Shown one piece after another: positions 56,744-63,614 of a stretch of DNA of 64,000 bases. A program made the translations under genes and the position numbers. Source of the stretch: Roseimicrobium gellanilyticum (GTDB lineage: Bacteria > Verrucomicrobiota > Verrucomicrobiia > Verrucomicrobiales > Verrucomicrobiaceae); contig NZ_QNRR01000005.1 in the NCBI RefSeq assembly GCF_003315205.1, positions 186,001-250,000 of the forward strand, given 5' to 3'. The first letter of the stretch is position 1. Each line of letters starts with the position of its first letter. The notes below the pieces were generated by a model that did not search any database, was not told the DNA's origin, and worked only from the letters and a program-made list of their open reading frames with translations.

Positions 56744-56866
56744 CCGCGTGTGCGTGGTGCGTGACTGCGACAGCGGGCTGCTGTGACCCCGGCTGGAAGC
56801 GCGGGCGCATCCGGCGCAACAAGCTGCTGGCAGTTCGCGTTTGTCTCTGCTCCATTCATCCCCTCC

Positions 56867-57742
56867 ATGAAGCCACGCCTCCTTGTTGTTGCCCTTGTCA
56901 CCCTCGCTCTCGGCGCGGGTATGCTGCTGAAATCTGCCGCCGCCCCTGCTGCCGCCGCCAAACCCCTGCGCGTGCTTCTCGTGACGGGTGGCTGCTGCCA
57001 TGACTATGCGAAGCAGCGCCTCATCCTGGCGGAGGGACTCAGCAGCCGCGCGAACATTGAGGTGGAGTTCGCCCACACGGATGACAAGAGCACCAAGCCA
57101 AACTTCGAGATCTACAACAAGGCTGACTGGGCCAAAGGCTACGACGTGGTGATTCACGATGAGTGCGCCGCGGACGTGATGGACCAGCCGTATGTGAACA
57201 ATATCGTCAACGCGCACAAGGACGGCGTGCCGGCGGTGAACCTGCACTGCGCCATGCACTCCTACCGCAAGGGCTTCAAGGTCGGCGAACCCATCGCTCC
57301 CGGCTCGGAACAGGCCATCTGGTTCGACATGCTCGGTCTCCAGTCCAATCGCCACGGTCCGCAGGAGCCGATCGCCATCACGCACACGGACAAGGAGCAT
57401 CCAATCACCAAAGGTCTGGAAGACTGGACCACCATCAAGGAGGAGCTGTACAACAACGTGCAGGATCCGAAGAACTTCCCTGGTCATCACACGCTCGCCA
57501 CGGGCAAGCAGATCGTGAAGAACAAGGACGGCACCACCAAAGAGGAGAATGCTGTGATCACCTGGACGAACAGCTACGGTCCGAAGAAGACCCGCGTCTT
57601 CAGCACCACCATTGGCCACAACAACGACACCGTGGCGGATGGCCGTTACCTTGACCTCATCACACGTGGCGTGCTCTGGGCCGCTGGCAAGCTCGGCGAC
57701 GACGGCAAGCCTGCTGCCGGATACGAGCCGAAGAGCAAGTAA
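56867..57742 (+). CDS. exported ThuA-domain protein, copy 1
   Basis: A 291-residue exported protein. The ATG at 56867 gives a signal peptide (LLVVALVTLALGAGMLL) before the ThuA domain (about 30-285): LRVLLVTGGCCHDYAKQRLILAEGL, VVIHDECAADV, AVNLHCAMHSYR, ITHTDKEHPITKGLEDW and VFSTTIGHNNDTVADGRYLDL. ThuA proteins have a class I glutamine-amidotransferase-like fold and are linked to trehalose or other sugar use, without firm biochemistry. The Cys-Cys-His trio in GGCCHD is shared with copy 2. It is the first of three close genes (ThuA, GNAT, ThuA); 14 bp separate it from the GNAT gene. Confidence 0.9.
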   Translation: MKPRLLVVALVTLALGAGMLLKSAAAPAAAAKPLRVLLVTGGCCHDYAKQRLILAEGLSSRANIEVEFAHTDDKSTKPNFEIYNKADWAKGYDVVIHDECAADVMDQPYVNNIVNAHKDGVPAVNLHCAMHSYRKGFKVGEPIAPGSEQAIWFDMLGLQSNRHGPQEPIAITHTDKEHPITKGLEDWTTIKEELYNNVQDPKNFPGHHTLATGKQIVKNKDGTTKEENAVITWTNSYGPKKTRVFSTTIGHNNDTVADGRYLDLITRGVLWAAGKLGDDGKPAAGYEPKSK

Positions 57743-57756
57743 CTGGTCCCTCGCGC

Positions 57757-58290
57757 ATGTCAGGCAGCGTGATCATCCGACCCTGGAGGGAGGATGATTC
57801 GCTGTCGGAAATCACCCGCCTGCTGCACGAATCCTATGCGGAGCTCGCGGCACTGGGGCTGAGATTTCTTGCCACTCACCAGGATGACTCGACCACGCTG
57901 CGCCGGCTTCGCGAAGGACATGCCTTCGTGGCGGTGGATCGCGGCCGCGTCGTCGGCACCATCACCCTCTACGCCGCACAGCCGGACTCTCCCTGTGTGT
58001 GGTATCGGCAGAGTGGGGTGTATCAGTTCGGCCAGTTCGCCGTGCATCCCGAACGGCAGCGCGAAGGCATCGGCCACCGGCTGCTCCAGCGCATCGAGGA
58101 CGAGGCCCGGGCACTCGGGGCTATTGAGCTTTCTCTCGACACTGCGGAAACAGCGGAACATTTGTGCCGTTGGTATGCACGGCTCGGTTTCCGGTTCATC
58201 CAGCATGTCTCGTGGGATGTGACGAACTACCGCAGCATGGTCTTTTCAAAATCACTTTCAGCACACTCATCAAGATCAACCACCTCATGA
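57757..58290 (+). CDS. GNAT-family N-acetyltransferase
   Basis: A 177-residue acetyltransferase. IIRPWREDDSLSEITRLLHE, then FGQFAVHPERQREGIGHRLLQRIEDEARALG (acetyl-CoA-binding motif Q/R-x-x-G-x-G) and CRWYARLGFRFI are typical. The C-terminal 20 residues are Ser-rich. It lies between the two ThuA genes, and its stop overlaps the start of the second by four bases (ATGA, 58287-58290), implying translational coupling. The substrate is unknown; the context suggests a role in the same sugar or peptide process as the ThuA proteins. Confidence 0.88.
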   Translation: MSGSVIIRPWREDDSLSEITRLLHESYAELAALGLRFLATHQDDSTTLRRLREGHAFVAVDRGRVVGTITLYAAQPDSPCVWYRQSGVYQFGQFAVHPERQREGIGHRLLQRIEDEARALGAIELSLDTAETAEHLCRWYARLGFRFIQHVSWDVTNYRSMVFSKSLSAHSSRSTTS

Positions 58291-59123
58291 AACGATTCCT
58301 GCTCATCTTCCCAGCCCTTGCGGCGCTGGCTACCACGGTGCTCCTCTTTGCGGCAGAACCACCTCCTCCCCCTGCTCCTGCTGGCGGCAACGTCTCACCG
58401 CTCAAGGTCCTGATGGTCTGTGGCGGCTGCTGCCATGACTACGAGAACCAGAAGCGCATCCTTGCGGAGGGCCTCAGCGCTCGTGCGAATGTGGAGTTCA
58501 CCATCGTGCATGAAGAGGGTCCTGAAGGGAAGAAGGACAAGACCCACCGCATCAGCATCTACGAAAAGGAAGATTGGGCGAAGGGGTATGACCTTGTGCT
58601 GCACAACGAATGCTTCGGTGCGGTGGAAGACGTGGCCTTCGTGGAACGCATCGCGAAGCCGCACAAGGAAGGCGTACCCGCCGTGGTGCTGCACTGCTCC
58701 GCACACAGCTACCGTGCTGCGAAGACGGATGAATGGCGGAAGGTCGTGGGGCAGAAGAGCATGAGCCACGAGAAGAATCGCGATCTGCTGGTGAAGAACA
58801 CGGCCCCTGAGCATCCCGTCATGAAGGGCTTCCCCAAGGAGTGGCTCAACCCGAAGGACGAGCTCTACAAGAATGAAGAACTCTATCCCGGCTTCGTCCC
58901 GCTGGCGAAGGCCTACGGTGAAGACACCAAGAAGGAACACCACGTGATCTGGGTGAACACGTATGAAAAGGGCAAAGTCTTCGGCACCACGCTGGGCCAC
59001 AACAACTCCACCATGGAATCTCCCGAGTACCTCGATCTCGTCGCCCGCGGCCTGCTGTGGGCCTGTGGCAAGCTGGATGACAGTGGCAAGCCGGTGGCGG
59101 GATACGGACCGGTGCAGAAGTAA
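58287..59123 (+). CDS. exported ThuA-domain protein, copy 2
   Basis: A 278-residue exported paralogue of the ThuA protein at 56867-57742. It has a signal peptide (FLLIFPALAALATTVLLFA) and a Pro-rich linker, then LKVLMVCGGCCHDYENQKRILAEGL, LVLHNECFGAV, AVVLHCSAHSYR, EHPVMKGFPKEW and VFGTTLGHNNSTMESPEYLDL. The two copies keep the same motif order and share many residues but differ throughout the linkers and insertions, so the duplication is old. The ATG overlaps the GNAT stop (ATGA), and a strong terminator follows 34 bp after its stop. Confidence 0.92.
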   Translation: MKRFLLIFPALAALATTVLLFAAEPPPPPAPAGGNVSPLKVLMVCGGCCHDYENQKRILAEGLSARANVEFTIVHEEGPEGKKDKTHRISIYEKEDWAKGYDLVLHNECFGAVEDVAFVERIAKPHKEGVPAVVLHCSAHSYRAAKTDEWRKVVGQKSMSHEKNRDLLVKNTAPEHPVMKGFPKEWLNPKDELYKNEELYPGFVPLAKAYGEDTKKEHHVIWVNTYEKGKVFGTTLGHNNSTMESPEYLDLVARGLLWACGKLDDSGKPVAGYGPVQK

Positions 59124-59206: not shown

Positions 59207-60382
59207 CTATTTTTTCACCGTCAGCATCTCCGGCCCATCGATCCAGCACGCAAGGTATGGCCAGTCGGCGCCTTCGCGCCAGAAGCTGGCAATGAAGGGG
59301 CGGTCAAAGATGAAGCGCTTGGGGTAGAGCGGCAATTGATCCACGGGCACGGCGTTCTTATCTGCGCCACTACTGAGAAAGGTGGGGGGCACTACGAAGG
59401 TCGTCTCCACCAGCGCTCCCTCATGATTCAGCCGCATATTGAGCAGTTGCTTCACAGGTCCGAGTATCCAGTATCCTCCACCAGATTCAAGGTACCTCTT
59501 GTTGCTGAGATCGGGATACTCGCAAAGGGTCGTGGCGTGAATATCCGGCAACCACAGCTCATCGTTTGGTGAAAGTGTATCGGTGTAGCGCCATCTTTTG
59601 CCTTCCTTTTCCACGGCTTTCATGGGGATGCGTTCCTTGCCAAGAAGTTCCTTGATGTCCTTTAGAGCGCTCTCGAAATCCTGGTGTGTGCCCGGAGTGG
59701 AAAGCACCATGCACTGCCGGTCACGGTCGTCTCCTGTGTAGAAGGTGAACCGCAATGCAAATTGGTCATTCAGATCGTCTGCTAGCACGCGCACGTTGTC
59801 CCCATGGCTTCCGGCGTGCTTACCCTGGGTGCCAAAGCCATATGCTTGGAAGGCATTGCCCTTTCTATCGCGGAATCTCTTGGGATTGGTGTCAGGTATG
59901 AAACTGCTGGGAAACTTGGGACGGGCGACAAAGGAAGTGACAATAAGGGCCTTCTTCATGCCCACGACTGTTGGTGGCTCATAGGGCTCAATCAGCCGCG
60001 CGGCATTCTCTCCCACCTGCTTGCGCAGAGCGGTGCGCACACGCTCGCGAAATTCCGGGGTATCATCCTCTGCGAAGATGAGTGTATCGGGTGGGAGCAC
60101 CTTGCTCTGGTCCCACTTGAACGCGTCGAGCGTCTCTGCGGTCACCGAGCGTGGGCGCATGACGATCTTATCCACCTTGTGATAAGCCTTCAGTGAGTCC
60201 CATGCCGCCTGGCCATTCGGGCTCCACACGAGGCTCACCCCATCGCGAAAAGGTTCGGCAACATCCAGGGTGGTTTCGACCGGCGCTGAAATCTGAGCAG
60301 GTGCTTTCGGCGATACGGAGTGCAGCACTGCGCAAGCCATGAAGAAAGCGCTCACTGCATTTAAGGAAACAGTCCGTTTCAT
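59207..60382 (-). CDS. secreted serpin-like protein, copy 1 (provisional)
   Basis: A 391-residue exported protein; signal peptide about 1-30. I know no named family for it, but it has serpin landmarks in order: SLVWSPNGQAAWDSL (compare the serpin SPxSI helix), a middle strand region with LSTPGTHQDFESALKDI (serpin LP loop and helix), ELWLPDIHATTLCEYPDL, and near the end LNHEGALVETTFVV, which recalls the hinge before a serpin reactive loop (NEEGTEAAAAT), then FIFDRPFIASFWREG, like the serpin RPFLF strand. Length is serpin-like (350-400). A paralogue lies 21 bp upstream. If correct it would inhibit or mimic a serine or cysteine protease outside the cell. Distant homology is my inference. Confidence 0.55.
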   Translation of the reverse strand: MKRTVSLNAVSAFFMACAVLHSVSPKAPAQISAPVETTLDVAEPFRDGVSLVWSPNGQAAWDSLKAYHKVDKIVMRPRSVTAETLDAFKWDQSKVLPPDTLIFAEDDTPEFRERVRTALRKQVGENAARLIEPYEPPTVVGMKKALIVTSFVARPKFPSSFIPDTNPKRFRDRKGNAFQAYGFGTQGKHAGSHGDNVRVLADDLNDQFALRFTFYTGDDRDRQCMVLSTPGTHQDFESALKDIKELLGKERIPMKAVEKEGKRWRYTDTLSPNDELWLPDIHATTLCEYPDLSNKRYLESGGGYWILGPVKQLLNMRLNHEGALVETTFVVPPTFLSSGADKNAVPVDQLPLYPKRFIFDRPFIASFWREGADWPYLACWIDGPEMLTVKK

Positions 60383-60403
60383 GTGCTGAGAGAGGGAGTC
60401 TGG

Positions 60404-61603
60404 TTATTTCTTCTCCATCAGCATCTCCGGTCCATCCATCCAGCACGCCAGGTAGGGCCAGTCCGAACCTTTGCGCCATAGGGAGGCGATGAAGGGCTTG
60501 TTGAAGATGAATTGCTTCCTGTAGAGCGGTAGCTTTTTGGGCTGGGCCTGTGCCTGCTGGGAGGCAGGTGGATCACCAAAGGGCTCTTGCGGTGCAGCCG
60601 CTGCCGCTGCCGTGGCTTCTACCACGGCACCCGTATGATCGAGCTTCCAATTCAGAAACTGCGAGACTTGGCGCAGCTCCCACCACCTCCGGCCGTCGGG
60701 GCTTTTCAGGTAGGACTTCCCGACGAGATCGGGATACTCACCCAGGACTCGGGCTTGCAGGTAGGGAATCCACAGCTCATCCCCGGCTTCCAACGTGCTG
60801 GTGTACTGGTATTTGACGCCGCCGACTTCGACAACTCTGCTTACCTCCCCAACCTTACCGAGGAGCCCATGAATTTCCTTCACCGCTTCTTCCATGCTGC
60901 GATGTTGACCTGGTGTCGAGAGGACCACGAACTCCTGGCTTTCCAAGCCTGTGGAAGCAAAGTCCAGACGCAGCACTTGATGCCCCGCGAGGTCGTCTGC
61001 CAGCACCTCTACATTGGTGTATTGAGAGGCGAATTTTCCAGCCGTGCCAAACCCTAGAGTGCGATGATGGACCCCCAATCGATCCGTGAAAAGGCGGGGA
61101 TTGGGATCCGGCGCGAAGTGGGAGGGGAAGAATGGTTGCCGGGCGATGGAGCACACCATCAATACCGGACGTGCGGGATTGCTTGCGGAGATGTCAGGCG
61201 GCACATAGGGCCCGATCATACTCGCGGCACTTGCTCCCACCTGCTTCTTGAGAGCTTCACGTACCTTGTCCCGGGATTCGGGGGAGTCTTCACCAGCAAA
61301 GGTGAACGTCCCGGGCGGCAACACCTTGGATTTGTCCATTTGGAACGCATTGAGCACTTCTGCCGTGGGACTGCGGGGATCCATGTGGATCTTGTCCACC
61401 TGATGGAAGTCCAGGAGGTCGCTCCATGTGGCATTGCCCACGGGACTCCAGATCAGGCTCACGCCGTTGCGGAATTGTTCACCCACATCCAGAGTGGCTT
61501 CGAGGGAGGGAGGATTTGCGACCTGGCCCAACGCCGGCACCGAGAGACAGAGCAATGCCTGAAGGGCGCGATACAGGGAAGGCTGCAACGGGGGAAATCG
61601 CAT
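60404..61603 (-). CDS. secreted serpin-like protein, copy 2 (provisional)
   Basis: A 399-residue exported paralogue of the preceding entry. The ATG at 61603 starts a signal peptide (LQALLCLSVPALGQ); a longer in-frame start overlaps the divergent gene. It shows the same landmarks: SLIWSPVGNATWSDLLDFH, ELWIPYLQARVLGEYPDL, then LDHTGAVVEATAAAAAA, a hinge with the run of small residues expected before a serpin reactive loop, and FIFNKPFIASLWRKG near the end. The putative loop between hinge and last strand (PQEPFGDPPASQQAQAQPK) is Pro/Gln/Ala-rich and differs from copy 1, as expected of loops with different targets. It is the first gene of this minus-strand pair. Confidence 0.55.
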   Translation of the reverse strand: MRFPPLQPSLYRALQALLCLSVPALGQVANPPSLEATLDVGEQFRNGVSLIWSPVGNATWSDLLDFHQVDKIHMDPRSPTAEVLNAFQMDKSKVLPPGTFTFAGEDSPESRDKVREALKKQVGASAASMIGPYVPPDISASNPARPVLMVCSIARQPFFPSHFAPDPNPRLFTDRLGVHHRTLGFGTAGKFASQYTNVEVLADDLAGHQVLRLDFASTGLESQEFVVLSTPGQHRSMEEAVKEIHGLLGKVGEVSRVVEVGGVKYQYTSTLEAGDELWIPYLQARVLGEYPDLVGKSYLKSPDGRRWWELRQVSQFLNWKLDHTGAVVEATAAAAAAPQEPFGDPPASQQAQAQPKKLPLYRKQFIFNKPFIASLWRKGSDWPYLACWMDGPEMLMEKK

Positions 61604-61724: not shown

Positions 61725-63614
61725 ATGCTTCATCGTCTTGCCTTTGCCTGCCTCGCCGTGACTGTGGTCGCGTGGTCTAGTGCAGCCCCTGCCGCCGAAA
61801 TCGCCCCCTACACCATGCGCGGGGGATTGCCGAACTTCTGGAAGAAGGTGGTGGAGAAAGGTCCGGAGCCGGTGCGCATCAGCTACTTCGGTGGGTCCAT
61901 CACGGCGGGGGCGGGATCCAGCAAGCCGCAGTTCTGCTACCGTGAGATGCTCACCGAGTGGCTGAAGAAGGAAAATCCTGGTGTGCCATTCCAACCGTAC
62001 AATGCGGCCATTGGCGGCACGGGATCGTGGCTCGGTGCATTCCGTTGCTGGAATGACGTGGGTTATCAGCGTCCGGATCTCGTGATTGTGGAGTTCGCGG
62101 TGAATGATGGCGGGGCGCCGGAGGAACAGGTGATTGCCAGCATGGAGGGGATTGTGCACCAGCTTCGCACGAAGACGCCGTCCAAGCCGGACATCCTCTT
62201 TGTGTACACACTGGTGAAGGGACACCTGGAGGACTTCAAAGCCGGGAAGCTGCCGCCGACCATGCAGTATCATGAGAAGGTGGCGGAGCACTATGGCATC
62301 CCCAGTGTGGTGATGGCGAAGCATGCCGCGGATCAAATCCTTGGCGGGAAGATGACCATCGAGGAGTTCGCCAAGGACAACGTGCATCCTACAGACGCGG
62401 GCTACGCGTTGTACCTCGAAGCGCTGAAGCCTTTCTTCGCAGCCGTGAAGAGCGCGCCTGTGGCAAAGGAAGTGGTGAAGGCTGAAGTGCCTGCACCGCT
62501 GTCCCCGAAGCCGATGGAGAACGCGCGTCTCGTGCCCTATGACTGGGCACAGATGGATGACGGCTGGCTCGGCTGGCAGCTCAGCACGTCTGGCAATCTG
62601 CCTCATGTGGCGGTGAGTGACAAAGCAGGTGCGACCATCGCGCTGAAGTTCAAAGGTTCGCAGATCGGCATCTATGACATCATTGGACCCGACACGGGCA
62701 ACCTGGAATACAGCCTCGATGGCAGCGAGTGGAAGCTGAAGGTGAACTTCGACAAGTATTGCCTGACCTACCATCGCGCGGCTTCTACGGTCTTCGCACG
62801 CGACCTGGATCCGAAGGTGGAGCATGAGCTGAAGATGCGCATCGCCGCCGAACCACCGAAGGACAGCAAGGGTCGCTTCACACGCCTCGGCTGGTTCCTC
62901 GTGGATGGCGAAGTGAAGGATCCCATGGCTGGGATGGATCCGCTGGCGCGTATTGATTCCATCTATGCCGGCATGAAGCCCGTGACGTGGAAGGCGCCTG
63001 AAGCCCGCTGGACGAATCTGGAGAAGACCAAGGCCAAGCTGGAGAACGGTCCTGCACTCACCATGGTGATGCTGGGTGACAGCATCATCGGCGACACCAG
63101 CAGCTCAAACTTCGAACTGCTGGTGGGCCGTGACTATCCGAAGTGCACCGTGAAGAAGATCGTGAGCGTGCGTGGTTCCACGGGCTGCTGGTATTACAAG
63201 GACCCTGAGCCGCTTGAGCAGTACGTGCTGCGTCATTCGCCCGACCTGCTTGTGATTGGTGGCATCAGCCAGCGTGGTGACATCGCGTCTATCCGCTCTG
63301 TGATCCAGCAGACGCGTGCGAAACTCCCCAATGTGGAAGTGCTCCTGCTCACGCCCACCTTCGGCAGCCCGCAGGCCGACTATGTGAAGAACTTCACGCC
63401 TCAACCTGACAAGAAGGCCTTCGCCTACCGTGCCGAGCTTCAGGAGCTCGCCGTGCAGGAGAAATGCGGCTTCTTCGACATGACGGCACCTTGGATGGAT
63501 TACATGAAGAGCAGTGGCTATGCGCAGGATTCCTTCAAGCGGGATCCCATCCACGCGAATCAGCGCGGCATGCAGATCCTGGGCAGGCTGATGCGGGAGT
63601 TTTTGAAGCTGTGA
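61725..63614 (+). CDS. exported protein with two SGNH/GDSL hydrolase domains
   Basis: A 629-residue exported protein with a signal peptide (about 1-24). The N-terminal SGNH domain (about 50-245) has block I YFGGSITAGAGSS (GDS replaced by GGS), VEFAVNDGG and DNVHPTDAGY. A central beta-rich domain (about 265-400) follows. The C-terminal domain (about 430-628) again has SGNH-type motifs: MVMLGDSIIGDTSS (a normal GDS), IGGISQRGD and KRDPIHANQRGM (Asp-x-x-His). So the gene holds two hydrolase units with different block I. Such enzymes deacylate polysaccharides. It is divergent from the serpin-like pair (121 bp between starts). Confidence 0.88.
   Translation: MLHRLAFACLAVTVVAWSSAAPAAEIAPYTMRGGLPNFWKKVVEKGPEPVRISYFGGSITAGAGSSKPQFCYREMLTEWLKKENPGVPFQPYNAAIGGTGSWLGAFRCWNDVGYQRPDLVIVEFAVNDGGAPEEQVIASMEGIVHQLRTKTPSKPDILFVYTLVKGHLEDFKAGKLPPTMQYHEKVAEHYGIPSVVMAKHAADQILGGKMTIEEFAKDNVHPTDAGYALYLEALKPFFAAVKSAPVAKEVVKAEVPAPLSPKPMENARLVPYDWAQMDDGWLGWQLSTSGNLPHVAVSDKAGATIALKFKGSQIGIYDIIGPDTGNLEYSLDGSEWKLKVNFDKYCLTYHRAASTVFARDLDPKVEHELKMRIAAEPPKDSKGRFTRLGWFLVDGEVKDPMAGMDPLARIDSIYAGMKPVTWKAPEARWTNLEKTKAKLENGPALTMVMLGDSIIGDTSSSNFELLVGRDYPKCTVKKIVSVRGSTGCWYYKDPEPLEQYVLRHSPDLLVIGGISQRGDIASIRSVIQQTRAKLPNVEVLLLTPTFGSPQADYVKNFTPQPDKKAFAYRAELQELAVQEKCGFFDMTAPWMDYMKSSGYAQDSFKRDPIHANQRGMQILGRLMREFLKL

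Follow-up and report, generated by a model that had tools for sequence, protein, structure and literature searches.

We found in the window, the entire stretch of 64,000 nucleotides analysed here, two tandem genes whose products P0001 and P0002 belong to a protein family of almost certain serpin ancestry, which has probably lost the protease-trapping mechanism. Serpins are the textbook example of a metastable fold, in which a high-energy, trapped native state allows the reactive loop to snap in. In no member of this family does the hinge of that loop match the inhibitory consensus, and predicted models of both window proteins place it in a strand already. A preliminary description of this DNA had correctly recognized the serpin fold, the homology and the position of the hinge and RPF strand, as the family profile comparison and the AlphaFold models indicate; its suggestion of a protease-inhibitor role does not agree with these hinge data. 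On balance, we favour a serpin that is locked into a loop-inserted-like conformation and acts as a binding or scaffold protein of the cell envelope.

The serpin-like gene pair

Both genes are open reading frames, exactly where the two paralogous, exported proteins had been placed before (Table 1). Their products share 48% identity across 397 columns (E 5e-118; 48-51% overall), and the stop codon of the upstream gene 2 is separated from the start of the downstream gene 1 on the same strand by a gap of 21 nt. With their signal peptide-like N-termini, P0001 and P0002 are probably exported; a second in-frame ATG of gene 2 lies further upstream at 61726, and the signal peptide comes with the start at 61603. 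For P0001 and L004, the best orthologue pair, dN (~0.15-0.19) is far below dS (at least 1.3; NG86), so that gene 1 is under purifying selection. The four motifs listed in the preliminary description occur in both proteins and in the claimed order. Across family members, the Trp of the WSP segment is invariant and SP is present in most.

The pair adjoins tandem genes for exported ThuA-domain proteins (56783-57742 and 58164-59123, forward strand), an order that is kept in the one sampled congener. Divergent from the pair, a forward-strand gene at 61725-63614 has an exported product of 629 aa that matches GDSL/SGNH hydrolases twice. We considered these ThuA and GDSL neighbours as functional partners and dropped them, because the gene order is common to only the sampled congener (G061) and not to other family members.

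Table 1. Features of the serpin-like gene pair and of related loci (window positions unless a locus or contig is named)
Feature	Position	Strand	Basis
Gene 1 (P0001), serpin-like exported protein, 391 aa	59207..60382	-	ORF; AlphaFold and VIA-align, Z 20.1
Gene 2 (P0002), serpin-like exported protein, 399 aa, paralogue of gene 1	60404..61603	-	ORF; 48% identity to gene 1; VIA-align Z 19.1
Gene 1 putative signal peptide, residues 1-30	60293..60382	-	inspection of sequence; low pLDDT, hydrophobic helix 9-20
Gene 2 putative signal peptide, residues 1-27	61523..61603	-	inspection of sequence; helix 8-19
Gene 1 WSP segment, residues 50-68, putative serpin s6B/helix B (SP motif)	60179..60235	-	model strand 50-53, helix 56-68
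Gene 2 WSP segment, residues 49-67, putative s6B/helix B	61403..61459	-	model strand 49-52, helix 55-67
Gene 1 hinge P17-P8, HEGALVETTF	59396..59425	-	register from 29 members; model strand 322-329
Gene 2 hinge P17-P8, HTGAVVEATA	60608..60637	-	register from 29 members; model strand 325-333
Gene 1 post-hinge loop (reactive-loop position), residues 330-355	59318..59395	-	pLDDT <50 at 328-350
Gene 2 post-hinge loop, residues 333-362, Ala run then EPFGDPP	60518..60607	-	pLDDT <50 at 335-356
Gene 2 EPFG loop motif, common to Akkermansiaceae relatives	60575..60586	-	member alignment
Gene 1 C-terminal strands (KRFIFDRPFIASFW...YLACWID), serpin s1C/s4B/s5B	59210..59317	-	model, VIA-align, member alignment
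Gene 2 C-terminal strands (KQFIFNKPFIASLW...YLACWMD), serpin s1C/s4B/s5B	60407..60514	-	model, VIA-align, member alignment
L001, canonical serpin of the window genome	G000:C18:44791-45882	-	PF00079 match, full inhibitory hinge
Akkermansiaceae serpin-like and secretin-like loci	L095 9694-14982 (two cassettes); L096 8382-10270; L100 9194-11903; L102 8391-10273; L093 9415-11492		

Serpin ancestry and predicted structures

Direct searches of Pfam and NCBIfam with P0001 and P0002 gave no match, and neither did a search of PDB sequences with P0002 alone. Among more distant members of the family, four match the serpin model PF00079, with 29.1 (L021, E 7.6e-7), 23.5, 22.0 and 17.9 bits, of which only the first exceeds the cut-off of 27 bits; they have no other match at E <=10. 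Serpin was also matched by 7 of the 12 profile members at E <=0.1. A profile of the 29-sequence family aligned by hhalign with 16 true serpins of the same class over 303 columns (score 80, probability 96.6, E 5.3e-10), against scores of at most 20.6 for 60 column-shuffled control profiles, and the Akkermansiaceae-rich and other-family subsets each reach serpins alone, with a score of 62 against a shuffle maximum of 21 for the former and 52 against 25 for the latter. The seven sequences of the window subclade alone did not reach serpins by profile (probability 2%, score 25.8 against a shuffle maximum of 24.9), and we therefore claim no direct link for them: the link passes through their relatives, to whose subsets they align with profile probabilities of 99-100. 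A 12-row family profile retrieves intermediate and canonical serpins from other genomes of the phylum, and 47 of its 48 matches at E <=1 among PDB sequences are serpins. Serpin homology is thus evident for the family, though not from P0001 or P0002 alone.

AlphaFold models of both copies, built from alignments of only seven rows, are of middling confidence (pLDDT 75.4 and 74.9, pTM 0.75 and 0.76 for P0001 and P0002) and predict a serpin fold for both. With the P0001 model, the matches listed by Foldseek are serpins (E 6.8e-8, prob 1.00, TM ~0.4), and all 50 entries listed by VIA-align for either model are serpins as well, with a Z of 20.1 (rmsd 4.3 A, 282 residues) for P0001 and 19.1 (rmsd 5.0 A, 289 residues) for P0002. 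In a viral structure library, the matches with confident scores are mostly viral serpins. From the DSSP strings, we infer that the WSP segment corresponds to s6B and helix B, and that s3A (145-153), s6A (281-288), s5A (311-319) and the hinge strand (322-329) follow. Both models show the serpin strand order, with a low-confidence loop of ~20-30 residues between s5A/hinge and s1C, where a reactive loop had been anticipated, then the PF strand (s4B) and s5B. A complete serpin has nine helices, A-I; in the models, the mature part shows no helix ahead of s6B or in the interval from s6A to s5A, and the helix-I segment is gapped in the alignment.

In both models, the hinge forms the strand directly after s5A. 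The best VIA-align matches of P0001 are cleaved, loop-inserted serpins (PAI-1, 20.1 against 16.8 for the native form; antithrombin, 19.2 against 17.0), and the same ranking of cleaved over native forms was obtained for P0002. With shallow alignments, middling confidence and models of the two family proteins alone, the inserted loop might reflect a bias of the prediction. We set aside corticosteroid-binding globulin, which heads the Foldseek matches, as a clue to function, since cleaved forms of other serpins equal or beat its Z.

The hinge and reactive-loop region

We anchored the hinge register on an invariant Gly, found at P15 in 29 of 29 members, around which P17-P8 aligns without gaps in all of them. 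This recovers the earlier reading of GALVETT and GAVVEAT as P15-P9. Even-numbered residues of an inserted serpin loop point toward the core, odd-numbered ones toward solvent. The family hinge alternates in just this sense: even positions are hydrophobic or small (Ala at P14 and Val, Leu or Ile at P12 in 25/29 members each, a small or aliphatic residue at P10), and odd positions are mostly charged (P11 in 26/29, P13 and P9 frequently). Mean hydropathy across the 29 members is 1.6, 3.6, 1.7 and 1.5 at P14, P12, P10 and P8, and -0.7, -3.9, -2.0 and -0.7 at P13, P11, P9 and P7. Such a pattern is expected of a permanently inserted strand, and judged from the sequences it is unlike the all-small hinge that fast insertion requires. 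The inhibitory hinge consensus for P17-P9 is ExGTEAAAA (PMC8233489, PMC10090351), and canonical serpins of the same class carry ExGTEAAAAT with almost no exceptions; one common form of the family hinge is E-K-G-A-R-V-R-V-E-T. None of the 29 members has A, G, S or T at all of P12-P9, compared with 12 of 14 canonical serpins.

The distance from P15 to PF varies between 27 and 46 across the family. As the preliminary description had stated, the post-hinge stretch differs between the two copies: the Ala run and EPFGDPP of P0002 are absent from P0001, and this Ala-rich stretch is nearer to the inhibitory type. Gln replaces the conserved shutter His (position 334 of antitrypsin) in almost all of the 29 members, P0001 and P0002 among them. 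The same exchange was seen in L066, L068 and L121-L127 despite a canonical or near-canonical hinge; because relatives with a canonical hinge (L066, L068) carry Gln too, it is weak evidence of lost inhibition.

Distribution and evolution

The protein family occurs patchily within Verrucomicrobiota: 12 of the 68 genomes from the taxonomic family of the window and 37 of 289 from its order have relatives, which include Verrucomicrobiaceae and Akkermansiaceae. Another family of the class has them as well, and L112 and L118-L120 come from additional families of the phylum. Serpins themselves had been called uncommon in bacteria, which does not hold for this class, as the Serpin model finds a match in 50 of its 236 sampled genomes, and a canonical serpin is encoded in the window genome, too. 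The proposal of a new subfamily agrees with our literature search, which covered open-licence papers and found no description of the clade, in itself weak evidence of absence.

Most genomes have one copy. The duplicated pair, on which the preliminary description had laid emphasis, is limited to the window lineage: no third copy was found in the window genome (7.9 Mb, 32 contigs), and the sole sampled congener has a single copy, flanked as in the window by the ThuA and GDSL genes. P0001 groups with this congener copy in the tree and P0002 branches just outside, a topology that is best read as a duplication before the two species separated, after which the congener lost one copy.

In a tree that covers serpins of the window's own phylum, the family (21 members) is a single clade with a support of 100/100, and its stem is very long (2.57 changes per column). 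Proteins that are unmistakable serpins by score branch near its base, including L130 (G511) and L136 (G538), which reach 188 and 167 bits with a canonical serpin model and have the hinges EKGTEARSTV and ETGAKASVVT. Like the Akkermansiaceae members and P0002, these intermediate serpins carry a Pro-rich post-hinge loop (DPFG and KPFG, compared to EPFGDPP). Because intermediate hinges and this loop are combined in proteins near the base, our data suggest a route from an inhibitory serpin via a changed loop to a rebuilt hinge; this is a proposal, as the basal branching order is unsettled.

Secretin-like neighbours and fused relatives

At five Akkermansiaceae loci, six family genes adjoin genes for a secretin-like protein of 260-290 aa, which is no full secretin; the two of these proteins that were compared with the Pfam Secretin model scored 16.5 and 18.1 bits, under the cut-off of 27.5. 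The serpin-like and secretin-like genes overlap by stop and start codon in four cases and are 2 nt apart in another. Such overlaps are the usual sign of coupled translation, which would thus link several Akkermansiaceae members to the small secretin-like protein. No secretin-like gene adjoins the window pair. A broad secretin-like profile was tried for co-occurrence and proved uninformative, because it retrieves full-length secretins as well, with matches to them in 177 of 190 genomes. By eye, the distant members L119 and L120 have an N-terminal region with several hydrophobic, probably membrane-spanning segments before the serpin-like domain, L050 has a C-terminal TPR-like region, and L014 a C-terminal extension of alpha-helical repeats resembling those of prenyltransferases and squalene cyclases. 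Such architectures are more in keeping with a scaffold in the envelope than with freely acting inhibitors.

Discussion

P0001 and P0002, both probably exported, belong to a clade of the serpin superfamily in Verrucomicrobiota that has diverged far from the rest, has lost the inhibitory hinge consensus and has a two-faced hinge. We propose that the hinge segment P15-P8 of this clade forms a permanent strand s4A within sheet A. We consider this permanent strand moderately probable. The native protein would then already be relaxed and loop-inserted-like, so that the stressed-to-relaxed snap that traps proteases would be impossible, and what remains of the reactive loop would be an ordinary exposed loop rich in Gly and Pro. 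Such a protein could serve as a stable extracytoplasmic module for binding or scaffolding, and some relatives may pair with the small secretin-like envelope protein. A part in an envelope complex is a tentative idea. Equally speculative is a lineage in which the reactive-loop hinge turned into a permanent sheet-A strand, the fold came to be built relaxed, and the protein was recruited to join a secretin-derived protein of the envelope as its structural partner.

The missing Pfam and NCBIfam matches, and those missing among PDB sequences for P0002, could mean that the proteins are no serpins at all and that the motif order arose by chance on an unrelated beta-rich fold. This can practically be dismissed, as profile, intermediate-sequence, structural and reciprocal evidence agree against it. 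It is improbable, too, that these are functional inhibitors with an odd hinge, whose cleaved bait loop inserts and traps proteases to shield the cell's own envelope. Inhibitory bacterial serpins do exist (PMC10090351), and the fold, the export signals, the P15 Gly and the Ala-rich stretch of P0002 would all suit such a function. However, small residues throughout P12-P9 occur in no member, P11 and often P9 are charged, the hinge departs from the published inhibitory consensus (PMC8233489, PMC10090351), the shutter His position is occupied by Gln in nearly all members, and the loop retains a recurrent PFG or Pro-rich motif instead of a variable bait.

Somewhat less remote, yet still rather unlikely, is a protein that does not inhibit but still snaps, so that loop insertion upon cleavage would switch it to release a ligand, in the manner of hormone-binding globulins. 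A change from the S to the R state is common in noninhibitory serpins (PMC8233489), the even hinge positions are still insertable, and corticosteroid-binding globulin is among the top Foldseek matches, where it is inseparable from other serpins by Z. The bulky Val at P12 and the charges at P11 and P9 would slow insertion, and the models are inserted already. We prefer the permanently inserted hinge.

A clade that keeps the serpin fold with its loop apparently built in could serve as a probe of how protein families lose metastability, and of what use the fold is without it. The family also widens the range of known bacterial serpins: because Pfam does not detect P0001 and P0002, Pfam-based surveys miss them.

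The window genome's own canonical exported serpin, L001, belongs to the same superfamily and differs by its inhibitory hinge EEGTEAAAAT and 344.6 bits to PF00079. Non-inhibitory eukaryotic serpins, namely ovalbumin, PEDF, hormone-binding globulins and HSP47, also have the serpin fold with a hinge off the inhibitory consensus; they have no specific sequence relation to the family. With the inhibitory bacterial serpins chloropin, miropin and thermopin (Groups S-U, Spence et al. 2021), the family has in common the fold and the order of elements, the P17 Glu (in most members), the P15 Gly, the RPF strand, the C-terminal strand pair and the usual export. In contrast to them, P14-P9 is rewritten, the shutter His is replaced by Gln, the helix I segment is missing from the alignment, the models appear to lack helix A, and the window pair lies under Pfam detection. 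Non-inhibitory functions of prokaryotic serpins have been stated to be unknown (PMC10090351). A phylogeny of 6,000 serpin sequences distinguished three prokaryotic groups, with one Streptomyces clade suspected to be non-inhibitory that matches serpins by BLAST (PMC8233489). These Group U serpins, in which inhibition is thought to be lost because breach and shutter residues have changed (PMC8233489), resemble our family; by their description, however, they are set apart from it, since they still match serpins in BLAST searches below 1e-10 and many of them keep the inhibitory hinge, which the family has lost.
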